In this document: positions 12,125-36,996 of the stretch, one piece after another | Numbering within the stretch: the stretch's first letter is position 1 | How the letters are laid out: each line of letters begins with the position of its first letter | Origin: a virus | Direction: 5' to 3' (one strand) | Length of the DNA stretch: 38,062 nucleotides | Virus record (IMG/VR): IMGVR_UViG_3300042503_002008 | Location: 1 to 38,062 of that record | Program-made: the position numbers and the translations under genes | Notes under the pieces: generated by a model | Told to the model about the DNA's origin: nothing | Seen by the model: the letters and a program-made list of their open reading frames with translations, nothing else | The model's database searches: none

Positions 12125-12148
12125 GCCGCGCTCCGCGGGCACAGTTTT
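12123..12148 (+). terminator. Terminator-like hairpin
   Basis: GTGCCGCG (12123-12130) pairs with CGCGGGCAC (12134-12142) with one bulged base, then AGTTTT. A short GC-rich stem plus four T is a weak intrinsic terminator signal between the HAD and mutase genes. Confidence 0.45.
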
Positions 12149-12162
12149 CATGGAGCTACGTC

Positions 12163-13257
12163 ATGGACGACGTTCTCATTGTGGGCAGCGGTATGTTCGG
12201 CGCCGTCTTTGCCCGGCAGTGCCTCGACGCTGGCAAATCTGTGCGCGTGCTGGAGCGCCGCGATCACGTTGCCGGAAACTGCTACACCAAGAACGTAGAC
12301 GGCATCGAGCAGCACGTCTACGGGCCGCACATCTTCCATACAAACAGTCCGAAGATCTGGGACTACGTTCGGCAGTTTGGCAGCTTCAACAACTTCGTGA
12401 ACAGGCCCAAGGTCAACTACCACAGCAAGCTGTATTCGTTTCCGATCAACCTGTTCACGCTCTACCAGTTGTGGAACGTCTCGACGCCGGAAGAAGCGCG
12501 CGCGGCCCTAGACAAAGTCCGCGTGCCTATCGCTGAGCCCCGGAACCTGGAAGAGTGGGCGCTGTCTCAGGTCGGCGAAGAGCTGTATCAGACGTTCATC
12601 TACGGCTACACCAAGAAGCAGTGGATGCGCGAGCCCCGCGAGCTGCCCGCGTCGATTATCAAGCGGCTGCCCATCCGGCTGAACTTCGACGACAACTACT
12701 TCACGGACCGGTACCAGGGTATTCCAGAAGCGGGCTACACCGCGCTGCTTGGTAATATGCTCGTCGGCGCGCGTATTGAGTTGGGCGTGGACTACCTTTT
12801 GGCGCGCGACTACTGGGACGCGCAGGCTAAAACCGTCGTGTTCACCGGCTGCCTCGACCAGTTCTACGGCTACCGGTACGGCCAGCTCGACTATCGAACG
12901 CTGCGGTTTGAGACATTGCGTGAAAACATCTCGGATTATCAAGGCAACGCGGTGATCAACTACACCGGCAGGGAGCCCTACACCCGCGTCGTTGAGCACA
13001 AGCACTTTGCGGGCGCGCAGACGCCGCACACGCTCGTCACGTGGGAGTACCCCGACGCCTGGCAGCCCAACAGCGTGCCGTACTACCCCATCAACGACGA
13101 CAAGAACAGCGCGCTTTACGCCCAGTACGCCGCCCTCGCCCGCCAAGAAACAAAATACCTCTTTGGTGGGAGACTGGCCGAGTTTAGATACTATGACATG
13201 CACCAGGTGATCGGCAGCGCGCTGACGTCGGCGGCGCAGTTTCTTGGAGTGAAATGA
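12163..13257 (+). CDS. glf: UDP-galactopyranose mutase
   Basis: 364 residues, normal length for the family. The FAD-binding Rossmann start is VGSGMFGAVFARQC with ERRDHVAGNCYTKNVDGIEQ after it. YGPHIFHTN contains the conserved substrate-side His. YTKKQW near residue 149 and the C-terminal RLAEFRYYDMHQVIG, which contacts flavin, are both family hallmarks. The enzyme interconverts UDP-galactopyranose and UDP-galactofuranose using reduced FAD in the cytoplasm, so the cassette can supply galactofuranose. GGAG at 12150-12153 selects ATG 12163. The end overlaps the next gene (TGATG). This is the most securely identified sugar enzyme here and shows that the phage changes or makes a galactofuranose-containing glycan. 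Confidence 0.95.
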   Translation: MDDVLIVGSGMFGAVFARQCLDAGKSVRVLERRDHVAGNCYTKNVDGIEQHVYGPHIFHTNSPKIWDYVRQFGSFNNFVNRPKVNYHSKLYSFPINLFTLYQLWNVSTPEEARAALDKVRVPIAEPRNLEEWALSQVGEELYQTFIYGYTKKQWMREPRELPASIIKRLPIRLNFDDNYFTDRYQGIPEAGYTALLGNMLVGARIELGVDYLLARDYWDAQAKTVVFTGCLDQFYGYRYGQLDYRTLRFETLRENISDYQGNAVINYTGREPYTRVVEHKHFAGAQTPHTLVTWEYPDAWQPNSVPYYPINDDKNSALYAQYAALARQETKYLFGGRLAEFRYYDMHQVIGSALTSAAQFLGVK

Positions 13258-14720
13258 TGGTCTCGTATGATTCGAGCAAGCTGTACGTTTGCGTGACGTA
13301 CACGCCGGAGTTTCAATCGCTTCTCGATAATCTCTGCACGTCGCTGACGCACCCCAACATCGAGATGCACGTCAACCGGGCTGTCTTGCAGACGCGCTAT
13401 GACGGCTTTCGCAGTCGCGGATGGTTTGAATGCCTGAAGCTCAAGCTGCAGTTCTTCTACGCCTTCTTTTCGAAGCTTCCGGACGGCGCTGTTGTCTGCT
13501 CAATCGACGCTGACATCCAGTTTTTTCAGCCGGAGCGGCTGTATGAGCTGAAGCAGCAACTCGACCGCTCGACGCTTGAATGTTACGGGCAGGCCGAATA
13601 CCAGACGCGTTGGATCGACAGGCCGAACACGGGTGTTGCCAACGGCGGGTTTTTCATGCTCAAGAAAACAGCGCGCGTGCTGGAATGGCTGCAGGCTGTT
13701 TTGGCGCAGAACTTCAATCGGCGCTTTCTGGGCGATCAGGAATATCTGAACCACTTTATGCGGCAGAAGCGCGTGCAGTATCAGCTGCTTCCGCCCCAGG
13801 CGTTTTTGCACGGCGGCCCAATCGTGGCAAACGATCTTGGCTTTATCGCGCCAAAACAGCTCGTGATGCACCACGCCACGTACTGTAAGACGGTCGAAGA
13901 GAAGCAGGCGCAGATGACGACGCTGCGGACAATGTGCGGGCTGGCGCCCGTGGACTGGCGCCGCGTGAAGAACACAAACCCGAACGTCGTTGCTTATGTC
14001 GACGGGCGGAACGACAACTCGTATACGCCCGACAAACAGTATGCGCTGGTGTTGTCGCGGTGCACCGAGGACGTGTCATGGGCGGCACAATGGAAAGACA
14101 CGCTCGACGTGTTCGTGTACAGCAAGTGCGGCGCGGCTGAACCCGCGTTCAAAGCGACGTGGCTGACGCTGCCCAACGTCGGCCGCGAATCGCACACATA
14201 CCTGGCGCACATCATCGACCACTACGACAACCTGCACGAGGTCACGATCTTTCTGCAGGGGCGGATCGACGACGCGCAGGCGTATCCGGCTAACCAGCTC
14301 ATGAAGTACATCGAGCCCGCCAAGAAAAACGGGTTCAGCGCGTCACACCTGATGCTGGTCAAGCCGTCGCACTGGGACAACATCAATTTCCTGGCAATCC
14401 CGAAGTACGCGCCGAAAGTGCGGTCCGGCGCCTTACGCATCAATAAAACGGGCTTGCTGGCTTTTGCGCACCGGCATTTCGGCAAGCTGCCGGTGTTAGC
14501 TGTGAGCACCTACACCGGGTGTTTTGCTGTTAGCCGCGAAGCCATCCAGAAGTACCCGAAGTCGTTCTACGTGCAGCTCCGGGATATCCTGGGCGACCAC
14601 AACGACCCTGAAGAGGGCCATTTTATGGAGCGGCTTTGGGCGCACATGTTTAGCGGCACCGCGTACGTGCCGGAACTGCTGGGTATTCCTGAAAACAAGC
14701 GCGATAAGTTTGTGTACTAG
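13257..14720 (+). CDS. GT-A glycosyltransferase fused to a DUF3431 domain
   Basis: 487 residues. Residues about 1-215 form a GT-A nucleotide-diphospho-sugar transferase: YVCVTYTPEFQSLL start, long first loop, and a DxD motif in CSIDADIQFF near residues 82-91, with NGGFFMLKK and GDQEYLNHF typical of GT77-like enzymes. Residues about 255-487 resemble DUF3431: YALVLSRCTEDVSWAAQW, LPNVGRESHTYLAHIIDHYD, VTIFLQGRIDD, and GCFAVSREAIQKYP. It shares this domain with the three-domain fusion at 8076, where DUF3431 is N-terminal, so the domain has been joined to two different transferases in one locus. ATG 13257 (GGAG at 13246-13249) is favoured over ATG 13254. Confidence 0.75.
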   Translation: MVSYDSSKLYVCVTYTPEFQSLLDNLCTSLTHPNIEMHVNRAVLQTRYDGFRSRGWFECLKLKLQFFYAFFSKLPDGAVVCSIDADIQFFQPERLYELKQQLDRSTLECYGQAEYQTRWIDRPNTGVANGGFFMLKKTARVLEWLQAVLAQNFNRRFLGDQEYLNHFMRQKRVQYQLLPPQAFLHGGPIVANDLGFIAPKQLVMHHATYCKTVEEKQAQMTTLRTMCGLAPVDWRRVKNTNPNVVAYVDGRNDNSYTPDKQYALVLSRCTEDVSWAAQWKDTLDVFVYSKCGAAEPAFKATWLTLPNVGRESHTYLAHIIDHYDNLHEVTIFLQGRIDDAQAYPANQLMKYIEPAKKNGFSASHLMLVKPSHWDNINFLAIPKYAPKVRSGALRINKTGLLAFAHRHFGKLPVLAVSTYTGCFAVSREAIQKYPKSFYVQLRDILGDHNDPEEGHFMERLWAHMFSGTAYVPELLGIPENKRDKFVY

Positions 14721-14721
14721 C

Positions 14722-15351
14722 ATGGCAATCGACTTTCAACGCGTTCCGGCGTTCTGCATCAACCTCGACACGCGGCCTGATCGCTGGGCGCAGATGGAGG
14801 CTGAATTCCAAAAAGTGCGCTGGCCGCTTTCACGCTGGCCCGCTGTGCGGCACGACAGCGCACCAGCTCCGAACGTTGTCAAAGAGCACGCAGGCGCGCT
14901 TGATAGTCACCGGCAGCTGTGGCAAAAATGCTTGGACGACAAACTCGACGTGCTGGCGGTGTTTGAAGACGACATCGTGTTGCCATCGAACTTCATTGAT
15001 ATCTTTGCGCGCGCGTCTGCGGAGCTACCCGCAAACTGGGCAATGTGGCACTTGCATTCTTCGCGCGCCAAGACTGCGCCCGCGGGTCAATATCTCGTGC
15101 GCATTCTTTCGTCGATGTGGGGCGCGCACGGCTATCTGATTCGGCCTGCGGCGTGTGCCGCGCTGTTGGCTATCCCTGGTTACGAGCCTGCGGATTATCG
15201 AATGACGAAAACGTATCTAAGCGCCGGTGGCCAGCCGTTGGGCACGGCGACGAGGTCGGCGCTGTGTTTTCAGCGCGGCGACGACAGCGATATCCCAGCT
15301 ACCGCGCAGTTACGCTTTTGGCGAGAGCAGCGGCAAAAATACTGCCGTTAA
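14722..15351 (+). CDS. GT25-family glycosyltransferase
   Basis: 209 residues starting one base after the previous stop. CINLDTRPDRWAQME at the N-terminus and VLAVFEDDIVLPSNF in the middle (DD of the GT25 signature) identify the lipooligosaccharide galactosyltransferase / LpsA-type family. SSMWGAHGYLIRPAACAAL matches the family's third conserved block. These enzymes transfer a hexose from a UDP-sugar to lipooligosaccharide or to hydroxylysine-type acceptors. It closes the glycan cassette; a 346-base gene-free region follows. Contains GATATC-motif copy 6 (F-I-D-I-F-A-R). Confidence 0.85.
   Translation: MAIDFQRVPAFCINLDTRPDRWAQMEAEFQKVRWPLSRWPAVRHDSAPAPNVVKEHAGALDSHRQLWQKCLDDKLDVLAVFEDDIVLPSNFIDIFARASAELPANWAMWHLHSSRAKTAPAGQYLVRILSSMWGAHGYLIRPAACAALLAIPGYEPADYRMTKTYLSAGGQPLGTATRSALCFQRGDDSDIPATAQLRFWREQRQKYCR
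14995..15008 (+). repeat. Directional GATATC motif, copy 6
   Basis: ATTGATATCTTTGC inside the GT25 gene. It extends to an 18-base identity with noncoding copy 2 (5611-5628), although no upstream complement exists here to form the same hairpin. Confidence 0.55.
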
Positions 15352-24586: not shown

Positions 24587-24940
24587 GTGAGTCTGCGCAA
24601 ATACTTCGACGAGATCGGTGGCGGGCAGCACGGCGACGTGCGCCTGAACTGGCCGGGCACGATGGAAGGGTTTCCAGTTATTGCCCCGCCCGGCGCGCCA
24701 GTCGATCTCAAGAAGGAAGAACTTGAAGACCTTGATCTGCGGTTTGACTTCAAATCGCAAATGTACGAACTCTGGGATCCGGCACAAAAGACCGAGTTTG
24801 ACGACATAAATGATAAGATAGTCAACGGTTGGTACCGGCTGCTCAAACGCAACGACATTTGGGACGACGAGCGCAAACATTACCGTGTCTGGCTGGAGTG
24901 GTTCCAGATCTACGGAATGATTCCGACAGCGAAGAAGTGA
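24587..24940 (+). CDS. Hypothetical small acidic, Trp-rich protein
   Basis: 117 residues from GTG 24587 (GGGGG before). No membrane span. It is rich in Trp/Tyr and acidic residues in KKEELEDLDLRFDFKSQMYE and ends with a helical DERKHYRVWLEWFQIYGMIP. Family not recognised. Five bases separate it from the following gene. Confidence 0.5.
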   Translation: MSLRKYFDEIGGGQHGDVRLNWPGTMEGFPVIAPPGAPVDLKKEELEDLDLRFDFKSQMYELWDPAQKTEFDDINDKIVNGWYRLLKRNDIWDDERKHYRVWLEWFQIYGMIPTAKK

Positions 24941-24945
24941 ACACC

Positions 24946-25932
24946 ATGCCACAGCCCATCTACCCTGGCGTATACACTCCGCAAACTTCAACGTCGTCAT
25001 CGGCGCAAACCGACTGGAACTGGCGTGATATCAACCCGTTCATGGCGTCAAACAACCCGGATACGCAGGCCTACATGGGATTGCACGCTGCGGCTGACAA
25101 GGCGCGCGCCGGGGCCAACACGCCAGACGCCTGGGCGCAGCAGCACGGGCAAGACATGCTCAAAATGCTTGCGGGCGGCCTTGGTCTTGGCGCTGGCGGC
25201 CTGGCGCTGTATCACCTGTCGCGCGGATTGCGGTCTTCCGGAAAGAAAGAACGTAAGTATCAAAACATGGCAACAGGTACGCCGATGATCGCAGACGACA
25301 AAACGGCGTCGTTTGATATCAATGCGCTGACTGATTCAGTTACCAAGGGCGTCGGCTCAATTCCGCAGTTTTTGGCGCACGGCCTTCCCGGCGCAGCGGG
25401 AGACGCTATCGGAAATGCCGGTAGCGGTGCCCCCAGTGATCCCGAAGCCATTCGCGGCGGAATTGCGTCAGCGCTTAAACTTGGCCTGGGCGCTACCGGT
25501 TTAATCGGCGGCGGCGCTGCGATCAACGCAATCATGAAGCAGAAGCAAAAAGCCGACGCGCGCGACGAGGTTGAAGACGCACGGCGGTATTACCACGCTG
25601 TCTTGACGGGCGCTGATAAACGAGCCAGCGCGCTTGATCGCGCTTTTGAGCGCCACTGCGGCAAGCAGGCTAGCACAGACCCGCTCAGTGGATTGTTTAG
25701 TATCGCCACAGATACCGTGCCGCGCCACCTTACAACCGCATCTGTTCTTGCGAGCCTGGCAGCCGCGGGTATCGGCGGCGCATACATGTACGATCGGACG
25801 CTGGAGCGAACACAGGGCGAGAATCTCGCCAAGGCGCAGGCGTCTCGCGCGCGCATGAGCGGGCTGCCGAAAGTGTGGATTGATCCCGAACAGCTGGCGC
25901 AAGTGAAGCAGCTCGCAGCCCAACGCAAATGA
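24946..25932 (+). CDS. Hypothetical Gly/Ala-rich protein, probable virion protein
   Basis: 328 residues from ATG 24946. Several Gly-rich hydrophobic segments alternate with charged helices: MLAGGLGLGAGGLALYHLSR near residue 70-89, ALKLGLGATGLIGGGAAINA near 175-194, a Lys/Arg-rich helix (KQKQKADARDEVEDARRYYH) and ASLAAAGIGGAYMYDRTLER near 270-289. This is the same design as the products of 18207 and 496 and may belong to an ejection or inner-capsid set. No motif supports a specific role. It precedes the RNA polymerase gene by nine bases and contains copy 9 of the GATATC motif. Confidence 0.5.
   Translation: MPQPIYPGVYTPQTSTSSSAQTDWNWRDINPFMASNNPDTQAYMGLHAAADKARAGANTPDAWAQQHGQDMLKMLAGGLGLGAGGLALYHLSRGLRSSGKKERKYQNMATGTPMIADDKTASFDINALTDSVTKGVGSIPQFLAHGLPGAAGDAIGNAGSGAPSDPEAIRGGIASALKLGLGATGLIGGGAAINAIMKQKQKADARDEVEDARRYYHAVLTGADKRASALDRAFERHCGKQASTDPLSGLFSIATDTVPRHLTTASVLASLAAAGIGGAYMYDRTLERTQGENLAKAQASRARMSGLPKVWIDPEQLAQVKQLAAQRK
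25312..25325 (+). repeat. Directional GATATC motif, copy 9
   Basis: TTTGATATCAATGC in the gene at 24946 (F-D-I-N-A). Confidence 0.5.
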
Positions 25933-25941: not shown

Positions 25942-28900
25942 ATGCCAGATTCGATTCTTCCTGCGCCCGCTCAGCCTCAACAGCGCGCGTTTGGCGATAT
26001 CGGCGCCATTCGCACCAACATCTTCGATCGAGCGCTACAAAGCGCCTCGACGCTTGAGCCTGTTAAGAACGACCTGCACACGCTGCAGCTCTCTGGTGTG
26101 CAATACAGCGGACCAGAGACGTTCACTAAGGCAGATCAGAAAAGAGCTATTCTGACTGGCAGGTCGTTGCAGCGTAGGCTGACCGGCACGTGGAACCTGG
26201 TCGATAATGTAACCGGGCAGACCATTTCTCGGCGGCAGACGACACTGGCGCATGTGCCGTACCTTACGGACTCTGGTACGTTCGTAAACAAGGGCGTTGA
26301 ATACACCCTGGCGCACCAGATGCGGCTGAAACCAGGCGTGTACACGCGCGAGAAAGATAACGGCGAGCTGGAAGCGCACGTTAACGTGTTGCCCGGTAAG
26401 GGCCGCATGCACCGGTACTTCCTGGATCCGAAAACCGGCGTGTTTAAGGTGCAGCTCGGGCAGGCAAACATTCCGCTCATGCCGTTGCTCAAATCTCTCG
26501 GCGCCAGCGACCAAGATATTCGCGCGGCATGGGGAAACGAGATCACAGCAGTCAACATGGAGAAGGGTGATGCGGGCACGCTGGAAAAGCTGTATCAGCG
26601 GCTTGTGTCGCGGCAAGTCCCTGATCTTGACGCCACGGGCAAGCAGAAAGCCCTTGCCGATGAGTTTGCCCGCATGGAGCTTGATGAGAACGTCACGCGC
26701 CGAACGCTTGGCGCTCCACACAAGAACCTAACGCCAGAAGCCATTCTTACCATCACGAAGAAGCTGATCGCGCTCAACCGCAAAGAAGTCGATCCAGACG
26801 ACCGCGACAGCATGCCGTATCAGCACATCGTTGGTCCAGAAGACCTGATTGCCGAGCGCTTCACAAAAGATCGCCAGACACTGCGCGGTTTGCTTTGGAA
26901 AGCCACGGCACGCAAAAATCTTGATCATGTTCCAACGGGTGTGTTTAACAAAGCCATCTCGTCGGCACTGATTGGCTCGGGATTGGGTTCAAGCCTGGAA
27001 GAAATCAATCCGGCTGAGATTCTCGATCATCAGGCGCGCGTGACCCGCATGGGCGAAGGCGGTATCGGCTCGCTTGACGCCGTGCCCGCGGACGCCCGCA
27101 GCGTACAGCCGAGCCATCTTGGTTTCGTCGACTTCTTGCGCACTCCCGAGAGCGGCAAGGTGGGCGTCGACATGCGTTTTGCCAGCGGGGCCAAGAAAGG
27201 TTCGGACGGCAAACTGTATACGCCGGTCGTCGATACCCACACCGGCCAGACAACATACAAGACGCCCGAAGAACTGGCTGACATGCCGCTGGCGTTCCCG
27301 GGAGAAGAGCACAGTGATCTCCCGCAAGTTGCCGCGCTCGTTGGCGGCAAACTCAAATACGTGCCGCGCGAGCAGGCTCGATATGCCCTGCCGCACATGG
27401 ACAACACGTTTTCAAGTCTCGCCAATCTTGTGCCGATGAAGAGCATGATGAAGGGGCACCGCGTAATCATGTGTGCGCGCATGTTTACGCAAGCGTTGCC
27501 GCTTGTGAACGCGGAAGCGCCGCTTGTTCAAAACGCTCTAGCTGATGACTCAAGCAAGTCGCATGACGACGTAGTGGGCACAACACTTGGTGCAGTCAAA
27601 GCGCCCGACCACGCGATGGTCGAGTCGGTCACGCCAGACGGCATCGTGTTGCGCGACCGTAACGGCAAGCGCCAAACGATCGACTTGTACAACAACCACC
27701 CGTTCAACCGGAAGACGTTCTGGCATCAGACGCCGACCGTCAATCCTGGCGACGTTGTGAAGCCCGGGCAGCTGCTGGCACACTCGAACTTCACTGATCA
27801 GCAGGGCACCGCCGCGCTTGGTATGAACATGCGCACTGCGTACTTGCCGTTTCAAGGCAAGAACTATGAAGACGCCGTGGTAATCAGCGAGTCGGCCGCC
27901 AAGCGCTTGACCAGTCAACACATGTACCAGCACGAAGCTGAGTGGGATGACACGTCAAAGATCGGCAAGAAAGCGTTTATCTCGTTGTTCCCGGCCGAGT
28001 ACGACAAGAAGCTACTCGACAACTTTGATGACCAAGGCGCCATCAAGCGGGGTACCGTTGTCAACCACGGCGACCCGCTCATCCTTCAGGCAAAAGAACG
28101 CGAGACGACATACGGCAAAGTGCACCGCGGCCGCGCCGGAAGTTTCTCTAACGACACGGTCACATGGGATCACCATTCGCCCGGTGTTGTCACAGACGTT
28201 GAGCACACCGACAAGGGCGTCAGCGTTGTCGTGAAAAGCATGGCAGAGATGCAGGTCGGCGATAAGATGACCGGTCGTTTTGGCGACAAGGGCGTCGTGG
28301 CGGACATCATTCCCGATCACCGCATGCCGCACGACAAAGACGGCAACCCGTTTGAAATTCTGGTCAGTCCGCTGGGATTGATCAGTCGCGTGAACCCTGC
28401 GCAAGCGATTGAAACTGCGCTTGGCAAAGTCGCTGCAAAGACTGGGCAGGGTTACAAACTCAAAGACTTCGACTCTTCAAACGATCTCGTAGACTTTGCC
28501 CAGAAAGAGCTTGGGAAGCACGGCCTCTCTGATACTGAGGACGTCGTTGACCCGGAAACCGGTCGTAAGATTAAGGGCGTGTTGACCGGTAGCCGGTACT
28601 TCATGAAGCTGCACCACACGGCCGAGGCAAAGGGCCAGGGCCGCGCGATGGGCAGCTATACCGCGGAAGGTACTCCGGCCAAGGGCGGCAGTGAAGGCGC
28701 TAAGCGCGTTGGCATGCTCGATCTTGGCGCGCTGCTCAGTCACGGCGCCGGAAAAGTGATCCGCGACGCCAAAATGGTGAGAGGGCAGGCAAACCCCGAG
28801 TACTGGTCGCAATTCATGGCTGGTTACTCGGCTCCGTTGCCGAAGATCCCGCATGTGTACGAAAAGTTCGTGTCGCAGCTGCAGGCGTCGGGTATTAACC

Positions 28901-30315
28901 CTGTCCGTACCGGCACAAAGACGCAGCTGATGGCGTTGACAGACAAAGACGTCGACTCGCTCGCTGGCGACCGTGAGATCAAAAACTCCGAAACGGTGGA
29001 TTGGAAAGGCCGACTGAAGCCCATATCTGGCGGCCTGTTTGACGAGTCGTTGACCGGCGGACATAGCGGCAATCGCTGGTCAAAGATATCTTTGCACGAG
29101 CCTATGCCCAACCCTGTGATGGAAGAACCCATCCGGCGCGTTCTGGGGCTTACTGAAAAGCAGTTCCGCGGCATTCTGGCCGGGCAAGTGCCGTTGCTTG
29201 ATAAGACCGGCCCAGAGGCGATCAAGCACGCGTTGTCCCGCATCGACCTGCCGAAGGCGATTAATCAGGCGCGAGAAGATATCAAGTCCGGGCGCAAGAC
29301 GCTCCGCGACGCTGCTGTGCGCAAGCTGGGGTACCTTAAGAGCGCGGAGACCACGGGCGTGCATCCAAGCGATTGGATGCTCACGAAAATGCCTGTGCTC
29401 CCGCCGTTGTTCCGGCCAGTTTCGACCATGGGCGCAAAGAAGCTCCCCCTCGTGGCCGACGCGAACTACCTCTACAAAGAACTGCTTGACGCGAACAGCG
29501 CGCTCAAAGAGACCGCCGGGGCTTTCAGCGATTACGGCGACGAGCGGCTGAACCTGTACGACTCCATGAAAGCCGTTTCTGGCTTGGGTGACCCGATGCA
29601 GCCCAAGAACCAAGAACGCCGCGTGCAGGGCTTTTTGTCGCACATCTTTGGCTCGTCGCCCAAGTTCGGCACCGTGCAGCGCAAGTTGCTTTCGACAACG
29701 ACGGACTTGGTGGGCCGCGCGGTCATTACACCCAATCCAGACCTGGATATGGACGAGGTAGCGCTCCCCGAAGACAAAGCCTGGGAAGTGTACAAGCCGT
29801 TTGTTGTCCGCGGGCTGGTCCGCCGTGGTTTACCGCGGATGCAAGCTCTCCAGGCTGTTGAAGACCGCAATAAATCGGCTTACGCTGAGCTGAATACGCA
29901 AATGTCGTCACGGCCGATCGTGATTAACCGTGCGCCGGTTCTACACCGATACGGTATGATGGCGTTTTATCCGAAGTTGACGAAGAATCACGTGATGGAG
30001 GTTAATCCGGTCATTACCAAGGGTTTCGGCGCGGACTTTGACGGCGACGCGATGCAGTATCACGTTCCGTCGACAGAGGACGCCGCGCAAGAAGCTGTCG
30101 AAAAGATGCTGCCCAGCAAGAATCTTTTCTCGGTATCGACGTTCAAGGCGCACTACACGCCGAACAAGGATTACCAAACCGGCGTGTATCTGGCGACCAG
30201 TCGGATTGATAAGAAGTCACCGCCAAAGGTGTATCAATCACGTCAAGATGCGATCAAGGCTTACCATCGCGGGGAAATCGACGTGGATACCCCTGTGCAC
30301 ATCATTGAGAGCTAA
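25942..30315 (+). CDS. DNA-dependent RNA polymerase, beta fused to N-terminal half of beta'
   Basis: 1457 residues. Beta-like blocks come first: NMRTAYLPFQGKNYEDAVVI (about 630), VGDKMTGRFGDKGVV (about 772), SPLGLISRVNPAQ (about 810) and GGSEGAKRVGMLDLGALL (about 915). The chain continues into beta': ETVDWKGRLKPISGGLFD (about 1015), DWMLTKMPVLPPLFRP (about 1143), RPIVINRAPVLHRYGMMAF (about 1325), and the catalytic loop GADFDGDAMQYHVP with D1365, D1367 and D1369, the Mg-binding aspartates. The stop comes soon after (HIIES), near E. coli beta' residue 560. Beta is shorter than the cellular form, and the N-terminal zinc-finger cysteines of beta' are missing. It must pair with the C-terminal beta' protein at 31279. 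No alpha, omega or sigma gene is visible. A virion or late polymerase is plausible. Confidence 0.95.
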   Translation: MPDSILPAPAQPQQRAFGDIGAIRTNIFDRALQSASTLEPVKNDLHTLQLSGVQYSGPETFTKADQKRAILTGRSLQRRLTGTWNLVDNVTGQTISRRQTTLAHVPYLTDSGTFVNKGVEYTLAHQMRLKPGVYTREKDNGELEAHVNVLPGKGRMHRYFLDPKTGVFKVQLGQANIPLMPLLKSLGASDQDIRAAWGNEITAVNMEKGDAGTLEKLYQRLVSRQVPDLDATGKQKALADEFARMELDENVTRRTLGAPHKNLTPEAILTITKKLIALNRKEVDPDDRDSMPYQHIVGPEDLIAERFTKDRQTLRGLLWKATARKNLDHVPTGVFNKAISSALIGSGLGSSLEEINPAEILDHQARVTRMGEGGIGSLDAVPADARSVQPSHLGFVDFLRTPESGKVGVDMRFASGAKKGSDGKLYTPVVDTHTGQTTYKTPEELADMPLAFPGEEHSDLPQVAALVGGKLKYVPREQARYALPHMDNTFSSLANLVPMKSMMKGHRVIMCARMFTQALPLVNAEAPLVQNALADDSSKSHDDVVGTTLGAVKAPDHAMVESVTPDGIVLRDRNGKRQTIDLYNNHPFNRKTFWHQTPTVNPGDVVKPGQLLAHSNFTDQQGTAALGMNMRTAYLPFQGKNYEDAVVISESAAKRLTSQHMYQHEAEWDDTSKIGKKAFISLFPAEYDKKLLDNFDDQGAIKRGTVVNHGDPLILQAKERETTYGKVHRGRAGSFSNDTVTWDHHSPGVVTDVEHTDKGVSVVVKSMAEMQVGDKMTGRFGDKGVVADIIPDHRMPHDKDGNPFEILVSPLGLISRVNPAQAIETALGKVAAKTGQGYKLKDFDSSNDLVDFAQKELGKHGLSDTEDVVDPETGRKIKGVLTGSRYFMKLHHTAEAKGQGRAMGSYTAEGTPAKGGSEGAKRVGMLDLGALLSHGAGKVIRDAKMVRGQANPEYWSQFMAGYSAPLPKIPHVYEKFVSQLQASGINPVRTGTKTQLMALTDKDVDSLAGDREIKNSETVDWKGRLKPISGGLFDESLTGGHSGNRWSKISLHEPMPNPVMEEPIRRVLGLTEKQFRGILAGQVPLLDKTGPEAIKHALSRIDLPKAINQAREDIKSGRKTLRDAAVRKLGYLKSAETTGVHPSDWMLTKMPVLPPLFRPVSTMGAKKLPLVADANYLYKELLDANSALKETAGAFSDYGDERLNLYDSMKAVSGLGDPMQPKNQERRVQGFLSHIFGSSPKFGTVQRKLLSTTTDLVGRAVITPNPDLDMDEVALPEDKAWEVYKPFVVRGLVRRGLPRMQALQAVEDRNKSAYAELNTQMSSRPIVINRAPVLHRYGMMAFYPKLTKNHVMEVNPVITKGFGADFDGDAMQYHVPSTEDAAQEAVEKMLPSKNLFSVSTFKAHYTPNKDYQTGVYLATSRIDKKSPPKVYQSRQDAIKAYHRGEIDVDTPVHIIES
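29082..29095 (+). repeat. Directional GATATC motif, copy 10
   Basis: AAAGATATCTTTGC in the polymerase gene, read in the second coding frame as S-K-I-S-L, not D-I. Confidence 0.6.
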
Positions 30316-30326
30316 CGGAGGTTTGC

Positions 30327-31034
30327 ATGTATACGGTCAATCCTGAGCTGCTGAAGATGATGAGCCGCCAGCTTGAGAAGTCGGCTGTTGTGCCGTCTGA
30401 CGCGGCCATGATGGCTGGTGGTCCGCCCCCGGGCGGCGCGCCGCCGATGGATCCGGCGGCCATGGGCGCAGCGCAGCCGGTTGACCCGGCGCAGGCCGCC
30501 ATGGGTGCCGCCCCGCCTCCGGGCGCTGACCCGACCGGTGCCGCAACAATGGCCGCCCCGCCTGCCGCTGTTCCGGCACCAATGCCGCCCGCTACACCTA
30601 CGGCTGGCGGCGCTCCGGGCGCACCGAAGATCAAGCCTGAGCAGATGATGCAAATGTTGGATTTCCGGCTCTACAACATGCAACAGCAGCTCACAGCAAT
30701 CATGAACGCGATGGGCGTGCAAGTCGACCCGGCTACGCTTGTTCTTCCGCCCGGGACCACCGGCGCGCCGCCTGCAGAGTCGGCCCTTCCTGGTGGCCCG
30801 ATGGCACCGCCGCCCCAAGATCCGAGCGCACCAAACGCGCCGCAGCCCCCAGGCGGCCCGATGCCCCCCGGCGCACCCATGGACCCGTCGCAGGCGCCGA
30901 TGGACCCGAACGCGGCTAAGCAAGCGAGCTGGTGGGAAAAAGCCGTCAAGGCTGGCGAAGAGTACAACCACGACCAGCCGACCGAGACGCAAAGTCTCGC
31001 TGAAGCCGTCAAGATCATGCTTAGGAACCTGTAA
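30327..31034 (+). CDS. Pro/Ala/Met-rich protein between the polymerase halves
   Basis: 235 residues; GGAGG lies eight bases before ATG 30327. A 25-residue helix (PELLKMMSRQLEKSAV) starts the protein. Two long Pro/Ala/Gly/Met repeats (PPPGGAPPMDPAAMGAAQPV; PMPPGAPMDPSQAPMDPN) flank a central helix EQMMQMLDFRLYNMQQQLTA and a C-terminal helix ASWWEKAVKAGEEYN. The helical blocks joined by disordered linkers suggest a tether. Its place between the two parts of beta' suggests a polymerase- or virion-associated partner, but no homology is evident. Confidence 0.55.
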   Translation: MYTVNPELLKMMSRQLEKSAVVPSDAAMMAGGPPPGGAPPMDPAAMGAAQPVDPAQAAMGAAPPPGADPTGAATMAAPPAAVPAPMPPATPTAGGAPGAPKIKPEQMMQMLDFRLYNMQQQLTAIMNAMGVQVDPATLVLPPGTTGAPPAESALPGGPMAPPPQDPSAPNAPQPPGGPMPPGAPMDPSQAPMDPNAAKQASWWEKAVKAGEEYNHDQPTETQSLAEAVKIMLRNL

Positions 31035-31036
31035 TC

Positions 31037-31276
31037 GTGCGCGTAAAGTTGCAGCACAACCTGCAACCCCACGAACAAAAGGCCCACAGCATCGTCATTG
31101 AAGACGACGCTGGCAATCCGATTTTTGTGGCGTTGCAGCTTGATGAGTCGATTGTTTACGCAGATGCGCGGGAGCCGGACTTCCACGCTATGTTGCGCGC
31201 GGCTGGAGTCGATAAGACTGTCGCTGTAACAGAAGTGCGGCCGAAGCCAATGCAGAACTTGCTCTGGACGCCGTGA
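31037..31276 (+). CDS. Small hypothetical protein
   Basis: 79 residues from GTG 31037, two bases after the previous stop. A beta-rich start, HSIVIEDDAGNPIFVALQLD, is followed by a helix (DFHAMLRAAGV) and a basic end. Family not recognised. It overlaps the GTG candidate start of the beta' C-terminal gene (GTGA), so it is probably translated with it. Confidence 0.5.
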   Translation: MRVKLQHNLQPHEQKAHSIVIEDDAGNPIFVALQLDESIVYADAREPDFHAMLRAAGVDKTVAVTEVRPKPMQNLLWTP

Positions 31277-31278
31277 CC

Positions 31279-33153
31279 ATGCTTAAAACGACGCTGGGCC
31301 AAATCCTGGTAAATGAAGCGCTTCCGGAGGACATGCGGGACTACAACCGCGTCCTCACGAAGAAGGATATGGGTAAGCTCGCAACAGAGCTGGCTGAAAA
31401 GCATCCAGAAAAGTACCGCGAGGCTATGAAACGGCTGCACGACGTCGGGCGTGCTGCGGCGTATTCAACCAACGGCCTGTCGTTCGGTTTAAAAGATATC
31501 AAACCAACACTGGCGGTCCGCGACGCACAAGTACGCGTTCAGCGGCAGTTGCGCGCAATTCTTTCTAATCCGCAGCTGGACGACAAAACGCGTTCGATGG
31601 AAATTCTCAAGCTTGCGTCCAGTACGCAACGCGAGCTGGTCGAGAAGGTCTACGAGGAAGCGCGCGGAATGGACAATCCGCTCGCGCATCAGGTGCTAGG
31701 CTCGGGTCACGGTAATAAGTTCTCGTTGAACTCGATCATTGGCGCCGACATGCAGTATGTCGACCACAAGAACGAGCCGATTCCCATTCCGGTATTGCGC
31801 GGCTACAGCCAGGGGTTGCGACCCGTGGAGTACTTTGCAGGTGCGTTCGGCACGCGTAAGGGCGTGATGGATCTCAAGACCGCCACAGCTGACGCGGGCT
31901 TCTTCGGCAAGCAGCTTGTGCAGATGACGCATCGGTTACTCGTAACCGGTCAAGACGAAGACGACCCGGAGAGGCAGGCCACGGCACATGACCGCGGCTA
32001 CCCGACCGACGTTGACGACACCGACAATGAGGGGTCGTTCCTTGCGCGCCCTGTCGGCCCGTACAAGCGCGATACCTTGCTGACGCCCAAGATTCTCCGT
32101 GACATCAAAGAGATGGGCGTGCAAGACATTCTTGTGCGAAGCCCAATTGTTGGCGGCCCGGAAGACGGCGGCGTGTACGCCAAAGACGTCGGTTATCGGG
32201 AGAAGCGCCGACTGCCGCCGATTGGCGACTACGTCGGTATTGCAGCGGCCCAAGCGCTTTCTGAGCCGGTGACACAGGCCCAGATTAGCTCCAAACACAG
32301 CGGCGGCGTGGGCGGCGCGGGCTCGATCTCCGGCTTCAAGGCGATCAATTCGCTCGTGCAGGTGCCGAAGACTTATCCGGGCGCCGCCTCACACGCGCAA
32401 CTGGACGGACGCGTGCAGGAAATTCGGGAAGCGCCGCAGGGCGGCTATTACGTACAGATCGGCGGGCAGGATCACTATGTTCCCGTCGACCGCAAACTGC
32501 AAATCAACAGAGGCGACGAGATCGAGGCCGGTGATGTGCTTTCAGACGGCATCCCCAACCCAGCAGAAGTCGTAAAGCACAAGGGTATTGGCGAAGGCCG
32601 CCGGTATTTCGTGCAGGCCATGCGGCAAGTGATGCAAAACTCCGGTATTGCGCCGCAGCGCCGTAATCTTGAACTGTTGTCGCGTGGGCTGGTCAACCAT
32701 GTTCGCATGACAGACGAGCACGCGTCGTACAGCCCCGAAGACGTCGTGCCCTACTCGGTGCTTGAACGAAACTGGCAGCCGCGCGCGGGAAGTGTGACCG
32801 GGGCGCCCAAAAGCCTGACAGGTCATTACCTGGAACGGCCCGTGCTGCACTATTCAATCGGCACAAAAGTGGGCAAGAACGTCGCAAGCACGCTGGATCG
32901 TTACGGAATCAAGCAAGTTGAAGCGCATCGGCAGCCTCCCCCATTTCAGCCCGAGATGATCCGCGGTATGTCGAACATCTCGAATGATCAGGACTGGATG
33001 ACCCGCATGTTGGGTTCTTACCAACAAAAAGGCCTGCTTAGCAGCGTACACCGCGGGGTTACAAGCGACACGGCTGGTAGCAGCTTTGTGCCGTCACTTG
33101 CGCGTGGAGAAACGTTTGGCGTATCCGGTACAACGAGCGGATGGCGCCCATAA
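31279..33153 (+). CDS. RNA polymerase beta' C-terminal half
   Basis: 625 residues if ATG 31279 is used; GTG 31273 (overlapping the previous stop) adds two. TTLGQILVNEALPEDMRDYN aligns with the beta' region after E. coli residue 570. Bridge-helix blocks are RGYSQGLRPVEYF and GAFGTRKGVMDLKTATADAG (about 175-212). The second zinc-binding region keeps the flanks VRSPIVGGPEDGGVYAKD but has lost its cysteines. The trigger-loop start is GIAAAQALSEPVTQAQISSK (about 320), replacing GxIAAQSIGEPGTQLT. The C-terminus (LLSSVHRGVTSDTAGSSF) resembles the cellular beta' end. Together with the product of 25942 it completes a functional two-chain core, with alpha absent. Confidence 0.93.
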   Translation: MLKTTLGQILVNEALPEDMRDYNRVLTKKDMGKLATELAEKHPEKYREAMKRLHDVGRAAAYSTNGLSFGLKDIKPTLAVRDAQVRVQRQLRAILSNPQLDDKTRSMEILKLASSTQRELVEKVYEEARGMDNPLAHQVLGSGHGNKFSLNSIIGADMQYVDHKNEPIPIPVLRGYSQGLRPVEYFAGAFGTRKGVMDLKTATADAGFFGKQLVQMTHRLLVTGQDEDDPERQATAHDRGYPTDVDDTDNEGSFLARPVGPYKRDTLLTPKILRDIKEMGVQDILVRSPIVGGPEDGGVYAKDVGYREKRRLPPIGDYVGIAAAQALSEPVTQAQISSKHSGGVGGAGSISGFKAINSLVQVPKTYPGAASHAQLDGRVQEIREAPQGGYYVQIGGQDHYVPVDRKLQINRGDEIEAGDVLSDGIPNPAEVVKHKGIGEGRRYFVQAMRQVMQNSGIAPQRRNLELLSRGLVNHVRMTDEHASYSPEDVVPYSVLERNWQPRAGSVTGAPKSLTGHYLERPVLHYSIGTKVGKNVASTLDRYGIKQVEAHRQPPPFQPEMIRGMSNISNDQDWMTRMLGSYQQKGLLSSVHRGVTSDTAGSSFVPSLARGETFGVSGTTSGWRP

Positions 33154-33231: not shown

Positions 33232-33277
33232 GCGTGAACCACGTGAATTGTCGAGACGCCGCACGGAGGTGGCCGCT

Positions 33278-35662
33278 GTGTATAACCGCAAAAAGAATGA
33301 GCCGTCCTGGACGCACTGGCGCGATGTAGTTCGGTCGCACAACCGGACACAGACGAAAGTTGCCGACTTCGGCGGCAAGGGCGACAGTACATCATTCGAG
33401 CAGGCGTTCTCGAATCTGGCGCACGCGTATCTCCGCGAGTCGGCGCCAAAGCTTCTCGATCACGAGATCGGGTTCCAGCTGCTTGACCGTGACCGCGAAA
33501 ACACCAAGGCTGTTGGCGTTTTTGCCTTCAAAGTCGGGTCGAGCTGGTTGTACGCGCCGGTCTTCTTCCTGAACGGCGACCTCAAGGGTCACGAACTCCT
33601 GTACATCAAGAATCAGGACATGTTCGTGCCGCTCAAGGAAAACTGGATCAATTACCTGATCAACCGGAAGCCGAACATTCTCGGCTCCAGCGTTGACAGG
33701 AACACTGCGTCGCTCGGCCAACGGCAGCCTGATTTCACGCAGCTTTCGCGCTCTCCAGCCAAGTTTGGTTCAGCCAAGCCGACGCTGAAAGAGATGATGG
33801 CCGCTGTGATGGGGCCGTTTGCCAAGTGTGCCACGCTGAACACGGCCGAAACCTTGGCAGCGATGGGCAAGCAGCTGAATCTGGCCACGTTCCTCAAAGC
33901 AGCTCGGCTGACCACGATTGACATGCTCGTGAAGACGATGAAAGACGCTCCGGCGCTTGCCGAAGCGTTTAACGAGTTTCACGACCTCGACGTGATCAAG
34001 GAAGCGGTTGCGCTGGCCAAAGAACGCGAAAGCCGTCCAAAGATCGCCAGTGTGCTGTCTGAAGCGCCGAAAGAATCTCCGGCGCTGGTCGGGCTCAAGA
34101 TCGTCACGTACTCGACTACGGTGCAGATGAAGCTGCCGCCGGAAACAACCGAAGAAGACCAGGAAAAGCTGCTTCGTGACGGCGTCCTGATTCTTGACCA
34201 GCGGGACCGAGACAACGTTTCGATTCCTTACAACATCCAGGTCGAGAAGAAGCTTTTCAACCCGACGTGCAGCGGGCTGTATGACGTGCTCGTCAAGCCG
34301 GGCAGCATCGAGCGCTGCTACATCGCCATGTATCCCATGGGTGGTGCCAAGCGGGCCGACTTTTGCACCGTGGTGCGAACAGAGGGCAAGCACAACTGGA
34401 TCAACATCGACCCAGCTCAGGTGTTTGTGCTTTCGCAAATCGAAGGCGACGAATACGATTCGTGGTTTAACGGCCTGCCGGACGCTACTTCGGCGCCGAC
34501 TGGCCGGACCCGATCAATGGTGCTCAGCAAGTCGGGTGACTCTACATGCCCGTTCCGCGTGCTTAAAGAGCTGGGCGAGGACGAATTCGGCACCACGTCG
34601 TACGAAATCGACTTGGAGTGCCACGCGAAGTATCCGCGGCACCAGCACATGCCGATGTCGGCGTACTTGGACCCGCTGCGCTACGACCCGTGGCGCGACG
34701 GAACACGGTTGCATCTGAAGGCCAAGAAGGGGTCGAGCCTGCGGTCCAGCATGGGCGACATCTTTGTGCCGGAAAGCTTCAAGCTCCTCAAGTGCGAACC
34801 CGGTGAAGACGACGCCCCCGCTGGCGAGTCTGATACCGGCGCTGTCTGCGGCTGTGGTGAAAGCGAGAATCCGCCGATTCGGCCGGGCAACCTCATCGAC
34901 GCCCAACTTGAGATTATGGGCAAGACCGCCGCGCTGGAGGTGTACCACAACGGCACGCAGGTCGTGATCAACAAGGAAGCCGCTAGGTCGCCAGTTATGG
35001 CACTGGTCACGCTTGTCGAGCATCACGGGCTGCGCGAAGCTGACGCCCGCGAGATTCTCAAAACCGCGGCGGACAAACGGAAGTACAGCGGGCGCATCAA
35101 GTATGCCGCTCCATACGGCAGCCCGATGATGATCCAGGGTGCGCCGAATGCTCCGACTGATCCTGGTCCGGTATATGGCGGCGAGACGATCATGGGCGCC
35201 GATGTACCCACGCAAATGGGAATCGACATCGGCATGCCTGTCTCTGACATGGCGGCTAGTAAGACTGACCGGCAGGTTTACAACCCCAACACGCGGCTCG
35301 ACAAGAAAGATATCAATGCCGTTCTGCAAGCCGCGCAAAGCGGCCAGCAAGACGTCTTTGATACGGCGATGATTGGCTCAATGCTGCGCGCCGTGCGTGA
35401 TGACTCGCTTGTCGACCGGTACATGGGCGAGTTGACCAGCGGTCTCGACAAACTTGGCCGCGTGCTGTTCATGTTTTACTGGCACGGCGATCGGTTCGCT
35501 GATCGCTATGGCAAAGCCGACATGCCGGAACTGGAAGACTCGCTCCGCAACGCCTTCGAGATGCTCGGCGACGTCATTCTCTTCTTGAAGCAGAAGACGA
35601 TTGATCCATACCCCGAAGAAGCTGGCACCGACGTCGATCTCGGCAACGTCGCAAACTCGTGA
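33278..35662 (+). CDS. Large virion-type hypothetical protein
   Basis: 794 residues from GTG 33278, with GGAGG at 33265-33269; the frame is open further upstream but without a start with a ribosome site. No transmembrane segment. The first 150 residues include GFQLLDRDRENTKAVGVFAF, LYIKNQDMFVPL and ENWINYLINRKPNILG. Later regions mix beta-rich domains (LDPLRYDPWRDGTRLH) with a CxC pair (VCGCGESENPP) and a helical C-terminus (LEDSLRNAFEMLGDVILFLK). Size and position suggest a head or tail structural protein. No relationship to known portal or capsid proteins could be shown. Contains GATATC-motif copy 11. Confidence 0.6.
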   Translation: MYNRKKNEPSWTHWRDVVRSHNRTQTKVADFGGKGDSTSFEQAFSNLAHAYLRESAPKLLDHEIGFQLLDRDRENTKAVGVFAFKVGSSWLYAPVFFLNGDLKGHELLYIKNQDMFVPLKENWINYLINRKPNILGSSVDRNTASLGQRQPDFTQLSRSPAKFGSAKPTLKEMMAAVMGPFAKCATLNTAETLAAMGKQLNLATFLKAARLTTIDMLVKTMKDAPALAEAFNEFHDLDVIKEAVALAKERESRPKIASVLSEAPKESPALVGLKIVTYSTTVQMKLPPETTEEDQEKLLRDGVLILDQRDRDNVSIPYNIQVEKKLFNPTCSGLYDVLVKPGSIERCYIAMYPMGGAKRADFCTVVRTEGKHNWINIDPAQVFVLSQIEGDEYDSWFNGLPDATSAPTGRTRSMVLSKSGDSTCPFRVLKELGEDEFGTTSYEIDLECHAKYPRHQHMPMSAYLDPLRYDPWRDGTRLHLKAKKGSSLRSSMGDIFVPESFKLLKCEPGEDDAPAGESDTGAVCGCGESENPPIRPGNLIDAQLEIMGKTAALEVYHNGTQVVINKEAARSPVMALVTLVEHHGLREADAREILKTAADKRKYSGRIKYAAPYGSPMMIQGAPNAPTDPGPVYGGETIMGADVPTQMGIDIGMPVSDMAASKTDRQVYNPNTRLDKKDINAVLQAAQSGQQDVFDTAMIGSMLRAVRDDSLVDRYMGELTSGLDKLGRVLFMFYWHGDRFADRYGKADMPELEDSLRNAFEMLGDVILFLKQKTIDPYPEEAGTDVDLGNVANS
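35306..35319 (+). repeat. Directional GATATC motif, copy 11
   Basis: AAAGATATCAATGC in the gene at 33278 (K-D-I-N-A). Confidence 0.5.
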
Positions 35663-35671: not shown

Positions 35672-36067
35672 ATGGCTAGTGCTCCTTGGACGGGCGAGAC
35701 TGTTTTTACTGCTACGAGCGGCGCAGCTACTACGGTCGCGCTGAAAGTGCCGCATCGTGGGCGCATTAAGGGTTTCAGCCTTTCGCAGACAAGCGGCGCT
35801 AATGCTGGTGCCGCTGCCGCGCTGTACACGAGCAACCAAGAGACAGCGCCGAATTCCGAGCTGCCTGCAGAAGCGTTTCACATTCTGGACATCACGCTCC
35901 CTACTGCGGCAAAAGTCGATAACCACTCGACAGACATTTCTTACGTTAACCGAGACGGTACGCCGACAAACCCGCAACGTTACTTGTATTTGAAGATCAC
36001 ACCAGCGGGTTCTGGTGCCAAGAACTTCGTCTTTTCGATCACAGTCGAAACGCCGTCGCTCATCTAA
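35672..36067 (+). CDS. Small beta-rich virion-type protein
   Basis: 131 residues; GAGGATAA precedes ATG 35672. Rich in Ser, Thr, Ala and Gly with alternating strands (WTGETVFTATSGAATTVALK; RYLYLKITPAGSGAKNFVFS) and no Cys. The layout fits a head decoration or fibre-like component. It overlaps the next gene by one base (TAATG). Family not recognised. Confidence 0.55.
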   Translation: MASAPWTGETVFTATSGAATTVALKVPHRGRIKGFSLSQTSGANAGAAAALYTSNQETAPNSELPAEAFHILDITLPTAAKVDNHSTDISYVNRDGTPTNPQRYLYLKITPAGSGAKNFVFSITVETPSLI

Positions 36068-36996
36068 TGCTCCAAGCACTTCGAGACAACCCGCTTCGCG
36101 CGCCAAACTGGCGATGGTTGCGCGCCGTTCAAATTGACGGCGGCGGCCCTCGGGCCAGCCGCGCCGTCGACGGTCCAGATGGTTTTGCGTGGATCCGCCG
36201 CGCCAGCCGCCTGAAGCGCCGCTATGAACTTGCCGGAAATCGCCCGGACCAGCTGTATCGGCTCGTGCAGTACGACCGCGACATGTTCTGGGCGCACTCG
36301 ATGTGGCTAGACGAGCGCGCGCCGACGCGTTGGGCGATCGAAGCCCGCATTCTTGCCGGAGAGACAGACGAAGAGATTGCGACAAAGCTGGGAACGTCTC
36401 CGTCGGTTATTGCGGCCTATGAAGCCGTGTTTTTCGACGTGCGCAGCCTGCTGACGAATCGGGACTACGTTACAACCGTGATCATGTCCGACGCCGTTGT
36501 TCGCGGATTGAGCGAGCGGCAGTACGACTTGCTCTGGAAGCTTTTTGGGTATCACGGCGGCGCGCATGTGCTTGATGCCGTGATCTCTAAAGTAACGCCG
36601 ATGGACAAGCCAGGGCAGTCCAAGGACGTCGGATTGTTCTTCCAGGAATTCGCAGTCAACGCTGTAAAGCACCGCGCAGCTTTGGCGACGATTACCATGC
36701 CGCTCAATGCGCACACCCAATTGGCGCTGATCGACTCGTTCGTGAAATACGTCGAGATCGAGAAAAGCAGCGAAACAGCCGAGAAAGCGCACGGCACCAT
36801 CATCGACAACATTGGCGCTATGATGGCCGCCCTGCCGTTTCGAATTGGTACAAAGCTGGATTCCATCGATGCAAAAATGCTACCCTTTGATGACGGCGCC
36901 GCGGAATTGAACAACGCCGAACTCATGGCTGTGGCCGCTGGTGATACACTAAGTAACCAGCAGGCCATCGCAGACTTGCGTTTTCCGGGAGAATAG
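36067..36996 (+). CDS. Helix-turn-helix-containing hypothetical protein
   Basis: 309 residues. After an N-terminal basic domain with Trp (APNWRWLRAVQ), residues about 95-120 read EARILAGETDEEIATKLGTS and PSVIAAYEAVFFDV, a helix-turn-helix of the response-regulator/sigma-region-4 style. The remainder is helical, with LLWKLFGYHGG and a long C-terminal coil. DNA binding is likely; the role could be transcription control, terminase small subunit or a chromosome-binding virion protein. It overlaps the previous stop (TAATG). Confidence 0.6.
   Translation: MLQALRDNPLRAPNWRWLRAVQIDGGGPRASRAVDGPDGFAWIRRASRLKRRYELAGNRPDQLYRLVQYDRDMFWAHSMWLDERAPTRWAIEARILAGETDEEIATKLGTSPSVIAAYEAVFFDVRSLLTNRDYVTTVIMSDAVVRGLSERQYDLLWKLFGYHGGAHVLDAVISKVTPMDKPGQSKDVGLFFQEFAVNAVKHRAALATITMPLNAHTQLALIDSFVKYVEIEKSSETAEKAHGTIIDNIGAMMAALPFRIGTKLDSIDAKMLPFDDGAAELNNAELMAVAAGDTLSNQQAIADLRFPGE

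Follow-up and report, generated by a model that had tools for sequence, protein, structure and literature searches.

Multi-subunit RNA polymerases (RNAPs) of phages are mostly known either from the phiKZ type, whose subunits are shattered and which lacks a recognisable sigma factor, or from small single-chain forms. The present analysis concerns a different chain plan, encoded in 38,062 nucleotides (nt) of viral DNA (IMG/VR record IMGVR_UViG_3300042503_002008, positions 1 to 38,062; hereafter the window), in which beta is fused to the N-terminal part of beta-prime (beta-prime-N) on one chain and the C-terminal part (beta-prime-C) forms a second chain two genes further downstream. This chain architecture is new, while the kind of enzyme itself is known. 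From comparison with its relatives, among them a cultured Salmonella phage, we consider it probable (roughly 60%) that the locus encodes a virion-packaged, sigma-dependent RNAP for early transcription that the large tailed phages of a broad lineage would share.

In the RpoC1-RpoC2 enzymes of cyanobacteria and plastids beta-prime is likewise split past the catalytic barrel, but beta is a separate subunit there. Natural beta-beta-prime fusions (RpoBC), presumably those of Helicobacter and Wolbachia in the case of the models PRK09603 and PRK14844, both of which match the window, differ in holding all of beta-prime. The phiKZ/AR9-type enzymes lack alpha and omega, neither of which was detected in the present lineage, have a beta-prime cut in the same linker region and exist in a virion form, as is likely here; in contrast, their beta is cut too, into two or three chains, each genome carries two RNAP sets and no sigma homologue is recognisable (PMC7598289, PMC7824862). 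In the window, and likewise in most of its relatives, beta is whole and fused, the breaks seen elsewhere being due to inteins, an intron or other interruptions. YonO, the crAss-like gp66 and P23-45 gp64/gp96 also carry both catalytic barrels on one chain, but in these the whole enzyme is single-chain and far more divergent (PMC10770324, PMC7824862). An earlier note on this DNA, made from the sequence alone, had correctly set the locus apart from phiKZ-type and fully fused bacterial enzymes. The two chains and their principal elements are as follows.

25942..30315, plus strand: chain 1, beta plus the N-terminal part of beta-prime, 1457 amino acids (aa), ATG start; identified by profile matches and a single chain in relatives
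28255..28293, plus strand: beta catalytic-barrel motif VGDKMTGRFGDKG, chain 1 residues 772-784, with conserved K775 and K783
28900..28929, plus strand: beta to beta-prime junction, chain 1 residues 987-996, about 10 residues between the homologous parts
30028..30048, plus strand: Mg-binding loop GADFDGD, chain 1 residues 1363-1369
31273..33153, plus strand: chain 2, C-terminal part of beta-prime, 626 aa, GTG start, the ATG at 31279 being the likelier start
31822..31929, plus strand: bridge helix, chain 2 residues 184-219, from the E. coli alignment; one long helix in the predicted model
32254..32316, plus strand: trigger loop ALSEPVTQAQISSKHSGGVGG, chain 2 residues 328-348, with His342, from the E. 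coli alignment

Chain 1 matches beta over residues ~83-986 and beta-prime over ~997-1456, with Pfam matches to Rpb2_2 (barely at the cut-off), Rpb2_3, Rpb2_6, Rpb1_1 (under the cut-off) and Rpb1_2. Chain 2 matches Rpb1_5, its similarity to beta-prime running from right after the cut to residue ~485-498 of 626, and in most relatives beta-prime-C begins at the residue encoded by the window's ATG at 31279. On the RpoC model TIGR02386 chain 1 stops at position 534 and chain 2 begins at 547, while on PRK09603, a model of a naturally fused beta/beta-prime, the cut falls at 1941|1945. In the alignment with E. coli beta-prime, residue 1455 of chain 1 corresponds to 551 and its last residue to 566, Met3 of chain 2 corresponds to 569, and E. 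coli residues 552-564 are unmatched in the window chains, which places the cut within ~551-569 and, by these alignments, in the inter-domain linker past the beta-prime catalytic barrel. The earlier note had read one chain running from beta into beta-prime through DFDGD, with the bridge helix and trigger loop on a second chain two genes later and a cut near E. coli positions 560-570; the Pfam, TIGR02386 and PRK09603 matches and the E. coli alignment bear out the first of these, the E. coli alignment also the second, and the computed position of the cut is close.

By alignment, both barrels are on chain 1, so that the whole two-barrel active centre, with the Mg-binding loop and the lysines, lies on one polypeptide, and the moving parts that shift substrate and DNA lie on chain 2, in which residues 184-219 form what we take to be the counterpart of the E. 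coli bridge helix. K775 and K783, invariant in the six chains compared (window, L022, Arash, D69, L047 and L043), are presumably the two catalytic lysines conserved in RNAPs of this kind. A role for two conserved lysines in beta of these RNAPs has been described (PMC7824862). The trigger-loop His is present in 72 of the 72 tree rows having that part, three bacterial rows included.

The beta part of chain 1 ends in SGIN (residues 983-986), the equivalent of the usual C-terminus (SLGINIELEDE in E. coli beta), beta-prime homology starts at about residue 997, and the chain 1 alignment reveals no extra domain at the junction. An AlphaFold2 model of residues 760-1457 (mean predicted local distance difference test score, pLDDT, 70.6; predicted template modelling score 0.46) has a helix, a strand pair and a helix across the junction. 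Foldseek searches of the PDB with this fragment and with chain 2 returned cellular beta-prime, with TM-scores (structural similarity, by query) of ~0.36-0.50 among the rows listed, and matches of the chain 1 fragment in the viral library were weaker by E-value than those in the PDB. The N-terminal zinc-binding domain of beta-prime is retained in the intact-beta-prime phages RHph_Y65 and Va2 but missing from the window chain and from L022, Arash and D69, none of which has a Cys in the stretch examined. Arash and D69 still have the second zinc site, which the window and L022 have lost.

The distribution of the layout was assessed by IMG/VR scans queried with chain 2 (P0002), chain 1 (P0001), two alignments, a split-intein chain and single-chain proteins, loci being classed by three part profiles and counted as distinct where they differed in the first 380 columns of the beta-prime-N profile; the best 80 of at least 284, 80 of 133, 80 of 84 and 80 of 122 relatives were kept, and less similar layouts may be missed. 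All 114 of the 114 distinct two-chain loci, the window among them, have the fused chain followed on the same strand by a separate beta-prime-C with a gap of more than 600 nt, and 22 further distinct fused chains without beta-prime-C on the fetched stretch were left out of this count. What the earlier note had regarded as an unusual arrangement is thus the usual two-chain form of a large phage lineage, with record lengths of up to ~235 kb, many of them 190-230 kb. Most members of this lineage are uncultured. In GenBank the layout is found in the cultured Salmonella phage Arash and in three Vibrio phages that are cultured according to their records, D69, D148 (through tblastn hits only) and D181; the two chains lie 4.7 kb apart in Arash and 0.64 kb apart in D69. 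A further 20 distinct loci carry beta, beta-prime-N and beta-prime-C on one chain. Four of them are truncated where the contig or the locus stops; of the 16 that are complete, 12 have chains of 2,014-2,115 aa and the other four have longer ones.

The earlier note had allowed that the layout might prove to be both common and described; common it is, in metagenomes, but no description of a beta-beta-prime-N fusion with a separate beta-prime-C was found in the literature searched, including the accessible text of PMC7598289, PMC7824862, PMC10770324, PMC12153180, PMC12619734, PMC13282480 and PMC9123017. The accessible text of the Arash paper labels gp206 'beta' and gp216 'beta-prime' and makes no mention of a fusion (PMC10585845). 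No relative was found when cellular genome contigs were searched with P0001, while a search with alignment A2 returned four relatives among 256 pattern matches, those nearest the phage profile being L252, in a metagenome-assembled genome (MAG) of Methylococcales, and L253, in an Aquifex MAG, matches that are too weak for assigning a host.

Evidence for a virion holoenzyme in a cultured relative, good though circumstantial, comes from the published mass spectrometry of Arash particles, in which 116 proteins were identified (PMC10585845). The chain 1 ortholog, gp206, headed the list with 3516 spectra, 128 peptides and 100% coverage, the chain 2 ortholog gp216 was fifth with 1210, and the sigma factor gp10 yielded 467, compared with 1333 for the capsid protein gp226, 877 for the portal gp204 and 1149 for gp218 (PMC10585845). 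Spectra per residue, computed from these published counts, amount to 2.3 for gp206, 2.0 for gp216, 2.0 for gp10, 4.3 for gp226 and 1.5 for gp204; the first three values are consistent with similar amounts of gp206, gp216 and gp10. Packaging of the Arash RNAP in the particles is therefore likely, though not proven, because spectral counts are crude and the authors themselves raise the possibility of carry-over.

As regards promoter recognition, a sigma-70-like protein of ~267 aa was found by protein search in 27 of 27 long records, two single-chain records included; in Arash it corresponds to gp10, which carries a sigma-factor annotation, and an ortholog is also present in D69. Two of these sigma-like proteins were scanned with Pfam, the first scoring 40.3 bits for PF04539 (sigma region 3; cut-off 25.3) and 24.3 for PF04545 (sigma region 4; cut-off 24.1), the second 27.2 and, under the cut-off, 19.4. 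A Pfam search for sigma region 2 by itself fails on the conserved protein in the window's near relatives, and earlier Pfam searches for sigma had given PF04542 in 0 of 12 and later in 9 of 27 records, and PF04545 in 12 of 22, mostly weakly. Alpha (PF01000) was detected in 0 of 22 records and omega (PF01192) in 0 of 27, with positive controls in 13 of 14 and 14 of 14 cellular genomes, respectively. By inspection of the positions of P0001 matches, each of the 27 records has a single RNAP locus, in a search that a very divergent second set would escape. Arash has in addition a second sigma factor, gp196 (OQ632216, 120656-121693), with a strong Pfam region 2 match, which is missing from the published particle list.

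In the mechanism that we propose, chain 2, bearing the bridge helix and the trigger loop, would have to dock on chain 1 to give a working enzyme, and the covalent link between beta and beta-prime-N, with its ~10 intervening residues, most likely replaces the alpha dimer as the assembly platform. The lineage-conserved phage sigma-70-like protein would most likely recognise the promoters, and the RNAP, most likely packaged in the virion, would start phage transcription once injected. We infer assembly without alpha, activity, injection and early transcription, as well as the extension of the Arash result to the phage of the window, from the comparisons given above. Several observations weigh against this interpretation. 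The window chains are only ~34% (chain 1) and ~24% (chain 2) identical to those of Arash; the window is a 38-kb fragment, and the count of sigma-like proteins covers the long records of its relatives. Sigma region 2 was undetected by Pfam in both scanned sigma-like proteins and region 4 was below the cut-off in one of them, the quality of the predicted models is moderate (mean pLDDT of 70.6 for the chain 1 fragment and 78.8 for chain 2), and host alpha could still be recruited.

Among the other proteins in Arash particles are enzymes such as DNA ligase and ribonucleotide reductase, and the authors allow for carry-over of abundant proteins (PMC10585845). The enzyme might accordingly be a non-virion RNAP, made during infection for middle or late genes and present in particles by carry-over, as the many replication enzymes on the list and the authors' own caution would permit. 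We hold this to be unlikely, since the chain 1 ortholog tops the spectral count of all 116 proteins (although the capsid is higher per residue, 4.3 versus 2.3), chain 2 and gp10 have spectra per residue similar to those of chain 1, and the P0001 query revealed no second RNAP in the 27 records. It is also conceivable, though distinctly doubtful, that the enzyme is a hybrid in which host alpha (and omega) serves as the platform for the phage chains; such an arrangement would agree with the failure to detect phage alpha and omega and with beta and beta-prime that stay clearly bacterial-like, but the phiKZ/AR9-type enzymes work without either subunit (PMC7598289, PMC13282480). The Arash table, which covers phage proteins only, is silent on host alpha (PMC10585845).

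A loss of polymerising activity, with the chains serving a structural or host-interfering role, might be read from the missing N-terminal zinc domain of beta-prime and, in the window and L022, from the loss of the second zinc site; it is nonetheless very improbable, as relatives that have diverged strongly still retain the DxDGD core and the trigger-loop His and, among the six chains compared, the two beta lysines. Nothing was found to suggest that the junction of beta and beta-prime, or the cut, is a product of misassembly or of a frameshift error, and the probability of this is negligible. Arash and D69 show the same layout in their genome records, as does the intron-interrupted gene of D181, and the presence of this layout in all 114 distinct two-chain loci refutes an artefact. 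The sequencing error joining two genes to which the earlier note had pointed is countered by the fused chain, present in 26 of the 27 loci (L002-L028) that the chain 2 query retrieved, the sole locus without it, L012, starting at a contig end.

The RNAP was placed in a tree of 78 taxa, comprising 59 two-chain, 16 single-chain and three outgroup sequences (E. coli, L248 and L250, the latter two filed as phages and here taken for bacterial DNA); the IQ-TREE run was made on 28 of 42 taxa. The phage lineage, window and Arash included, forms one clade apart from the outgroup (FastTree Shimodaira-Hasegawa-like support, SH, 1.0; IQ-TREE ultrafast bootstrap, UFBoot, 100), and the two-chain taxa together with the single-chain L332 form a clade within it (SH 1.0, UFBoot 100). 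The other 15 single-chain taxa are the sister of this clade with moderate support (SH 0.874; UFBoot 79 on 28 taxa). L332 sits inside the two-chain clade on a long branch, a position that possibly reflects re-fusion or a long-branch effect. Because beta-prime is intact in the outgroup, the fewest changes, judged by inspection, would be one basal beta-beta-prime fusion, then one cut of beta-prime at the base of the two-chain clade, with a possible re-fusion in L332. With three outgroup sequences, none of them archaeal, the tree bears on relationships within the lineage rather than on its deep origin.

Among described groups, the mReC phages are comparable in carrying bacterial-type, deep-branching beta and beta-prime in tailed-phage contigs, but the filter that defined them requires NADxDGD, whereas the window has GADFDGD (PMC7481178); NADFDGD occurs in 18 of the 59 two-chain taxa and in 7 of the 16 with a single chain, and NADYDGD in others among the relatives. 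The major capsid family reported for mReC is PF07068 (PMC7481178). A search for this family returned nothing from 22 long relatives or from 5 further records, whereas three of three cultured intact-beta-prime phages were positive, two of them above the cut-off. In the main text of PMC7481178, as far as it is accessible, 'fused' and 'fusion' appear once each, both concerning crAssphage, and 'split' is absent. In a beta-prime tree with three cultured mReC-like stand-ins the node joining the phage groups has a support of 0.21, with long branches, and the lineage pairs with Carin-5 (SH 1.00).

The phiKZ-type and cyanobacterial cuts are reported to coincide after the catalytic barrel (PMC7598289). 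The phiKZ-type beta-prime-N families end 12-26 profile positions past the point matching chain 1 residues 1400-1409, which in profile coordinates would be ~30 residues before the window cut, and on TIGR02387 chain 1 stops at position 551 of 619, so that cyanobacterial RpoC1 extends ~68 model positions beyond the window cut. These three cuts, in one linker region at different residues, look to be either independent or drifted.

The fused chain is itself interrupted in some relatives. In Vibrio phage D181 (L239) group I introns lie at 6431-6711 and 2634-2841, the first interrupting the fused RNAP gene, and a homing endonuclease open reading frame (ORF) lies at 6725-7342. In four contigs (L215, L226/L256, L235/L257 and L258) the fused chain is spread over two ORFs, broken at about P0001 residue 920, with the following coordinates.

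L215: 642-3758 and 4159-5907
L256: 2941-6087 and 8001-9761
L257 and L258: 2807-7969 and 8001-9755

In L226/L256 an entire gene of 637 aa (L226 1494-3407) stands between the two halves. In the three pairs whose ends were examined, the first ORF ends in an intein-like N-part starting with Cys and the second opens with a C-part ending in Asn before Ser, and the layout of L258 is as in those three. The NCBIfam models intein_Nterm and intein_Cterm match the three pairs scanned with low scores, one of which exceeds its cut-off (the L256 C-part, 17.0 versus 15.6 bits), and split inteins are thus the probable cause of the broken chain in those relatives, as judged from sequence features. Further intein-like insertions lie at active-site motifs, namely after RTPE/HTPE (L018, L006, L210, L142, L257, L389), after GDKL (L319, L410, L376, L341), in the trigger-loop region (L023, L231, L319, L146) and directly past DYDGD (L359, L360, L365); among those scanned, Pfam intein, LAGLIDADG or endonuclease domains exceed the cut-off in L145 and L231 only. 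If the split chains do splice, the beta-beta-prime-N chain would be restored, which would fit selection for that link.

A fuller account would hold that a widespread lineage packages a holoenzyme of (beta-beta-prime-N), beta-prime-C and sigma without alpha and omega, and that it arose from the single-chain enzyme of the sister phages, beta-prime having later been cut at a flexible linker with the beta-beta-prime-N link kept, even by way of split-intein trans-splicing or RNA splicing. For this whole sequence of events we see the chances as evenly balanced.

The genes surrounding the two chains are listed below.

24829..25932, plus strand: 367-aa gene directly upstream of chain 1, with upstream homologues in 35 of 59 two-chain taxa
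30327..31034, plus strand: intervening gene 1, Pro-rich, 235 aa, with profile homologues between the chains in 30 of 59 two-chain tree taxa
31037..31276, plus strand: intervening gene 2, 79 aa, with homologues between the chains in 32 of 59 two-chain tree taxa
33248..35662, plus strand: 804-aa gene, homologue of Arash gp218 in the conserved neighbourhood (Arash E 1.4e-16, iterated profile 2e-75)
36067..36996, plus strand: 309-aa gene, homologue of Arash gp219 in the conserved neighbourhood (Arash E 2.5e-4, iterated profile 2e-10)

The window and its near relatives share the order chain 1, gene 1, gene 2, chain 2, 804-aa, 131-aa and 309-aa gene. Intervening gene 1 has no Pfam or PHROG match at E 0.1 and gene 2 only weak ones. 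Two genes do stand between the chains, as the earlier note had it, but its description of them as foreign does not hold, since they are conserved across most of the window's branch; recent foreign insertion is ruled out for that branch. Profile searches detected no homologues of either gene in Arash, D69 and their branch, and none of the window's RNAP neighbour genes in the 16 single-chain loci. Arash, D69, D148 and D181 share the fused chain and separate beta-prime-C with the window, and Arash and D69 also share the gp218/gp219-type genes (homologues of the 804- and 309-aa genes) downstream of chain 2 and the sigma-like ortholog with its lineage; Arash differs in having other genes between the chains and a beta-prime-C that keeps the Zn-binding Cys residues.

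Several further observations were made among the polymerase loci. Single-chain sister phages with proteins of ~2,014-2,115 aa are represented by L325, L329, L338, L340, L342, L348, L350, L377 and L383. Outside the count of 20 single-chain loci stands the distant single-chain ORF of L254 (2553-10313), a beta-beta-prime-like polymerase of 2,586 aa on a contig in a Clostridia MAG, possibly a phage contig in the bin. The RNAP ORFs of L209/L269, L140/L153 and L261/L262/L317 are broken in ways other than the intein and intron layouts, and beta-prime-C is lengthened to ~1,060-1,390 aa in L022 (10001-13627), L218, L219, L221, L226 and L229, the added part in L022 being C-terminal and rich in Pro, Gly and Gln. 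OR844998, OR846602 and CAKLQH020000005, filed as phages, have bacterial-type rpoB and rpoC in separate genes and look like host sequence. Elsewhere in the window, a sugar-modifying gene cluster (8061-15351) includes a UDP-galactopyranose mutase (12121-13257), matches to glycosyltransferase family 9, DUF3431 and nucleotide-sugar transferases, and a weak glucosyltransferase PHROG match (14524-15351), and a PhoH-like ATPase is encoded at 4147-4860.

The lineage described here keeps a clearly bacterial-like enzyme together with a sigma-like protein of its own, but its chain plan is different and comes in a single-chain and a two-chain form; the natural cut marks a spot where beta-prime can be opened. 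Given that a cultured Salmonella phage is available, two questions become directly testable, namely whether a covalent beta-beta-prime link can replace the alpha dimer and in what way a whole holoenzyme would be packaged and delivered.

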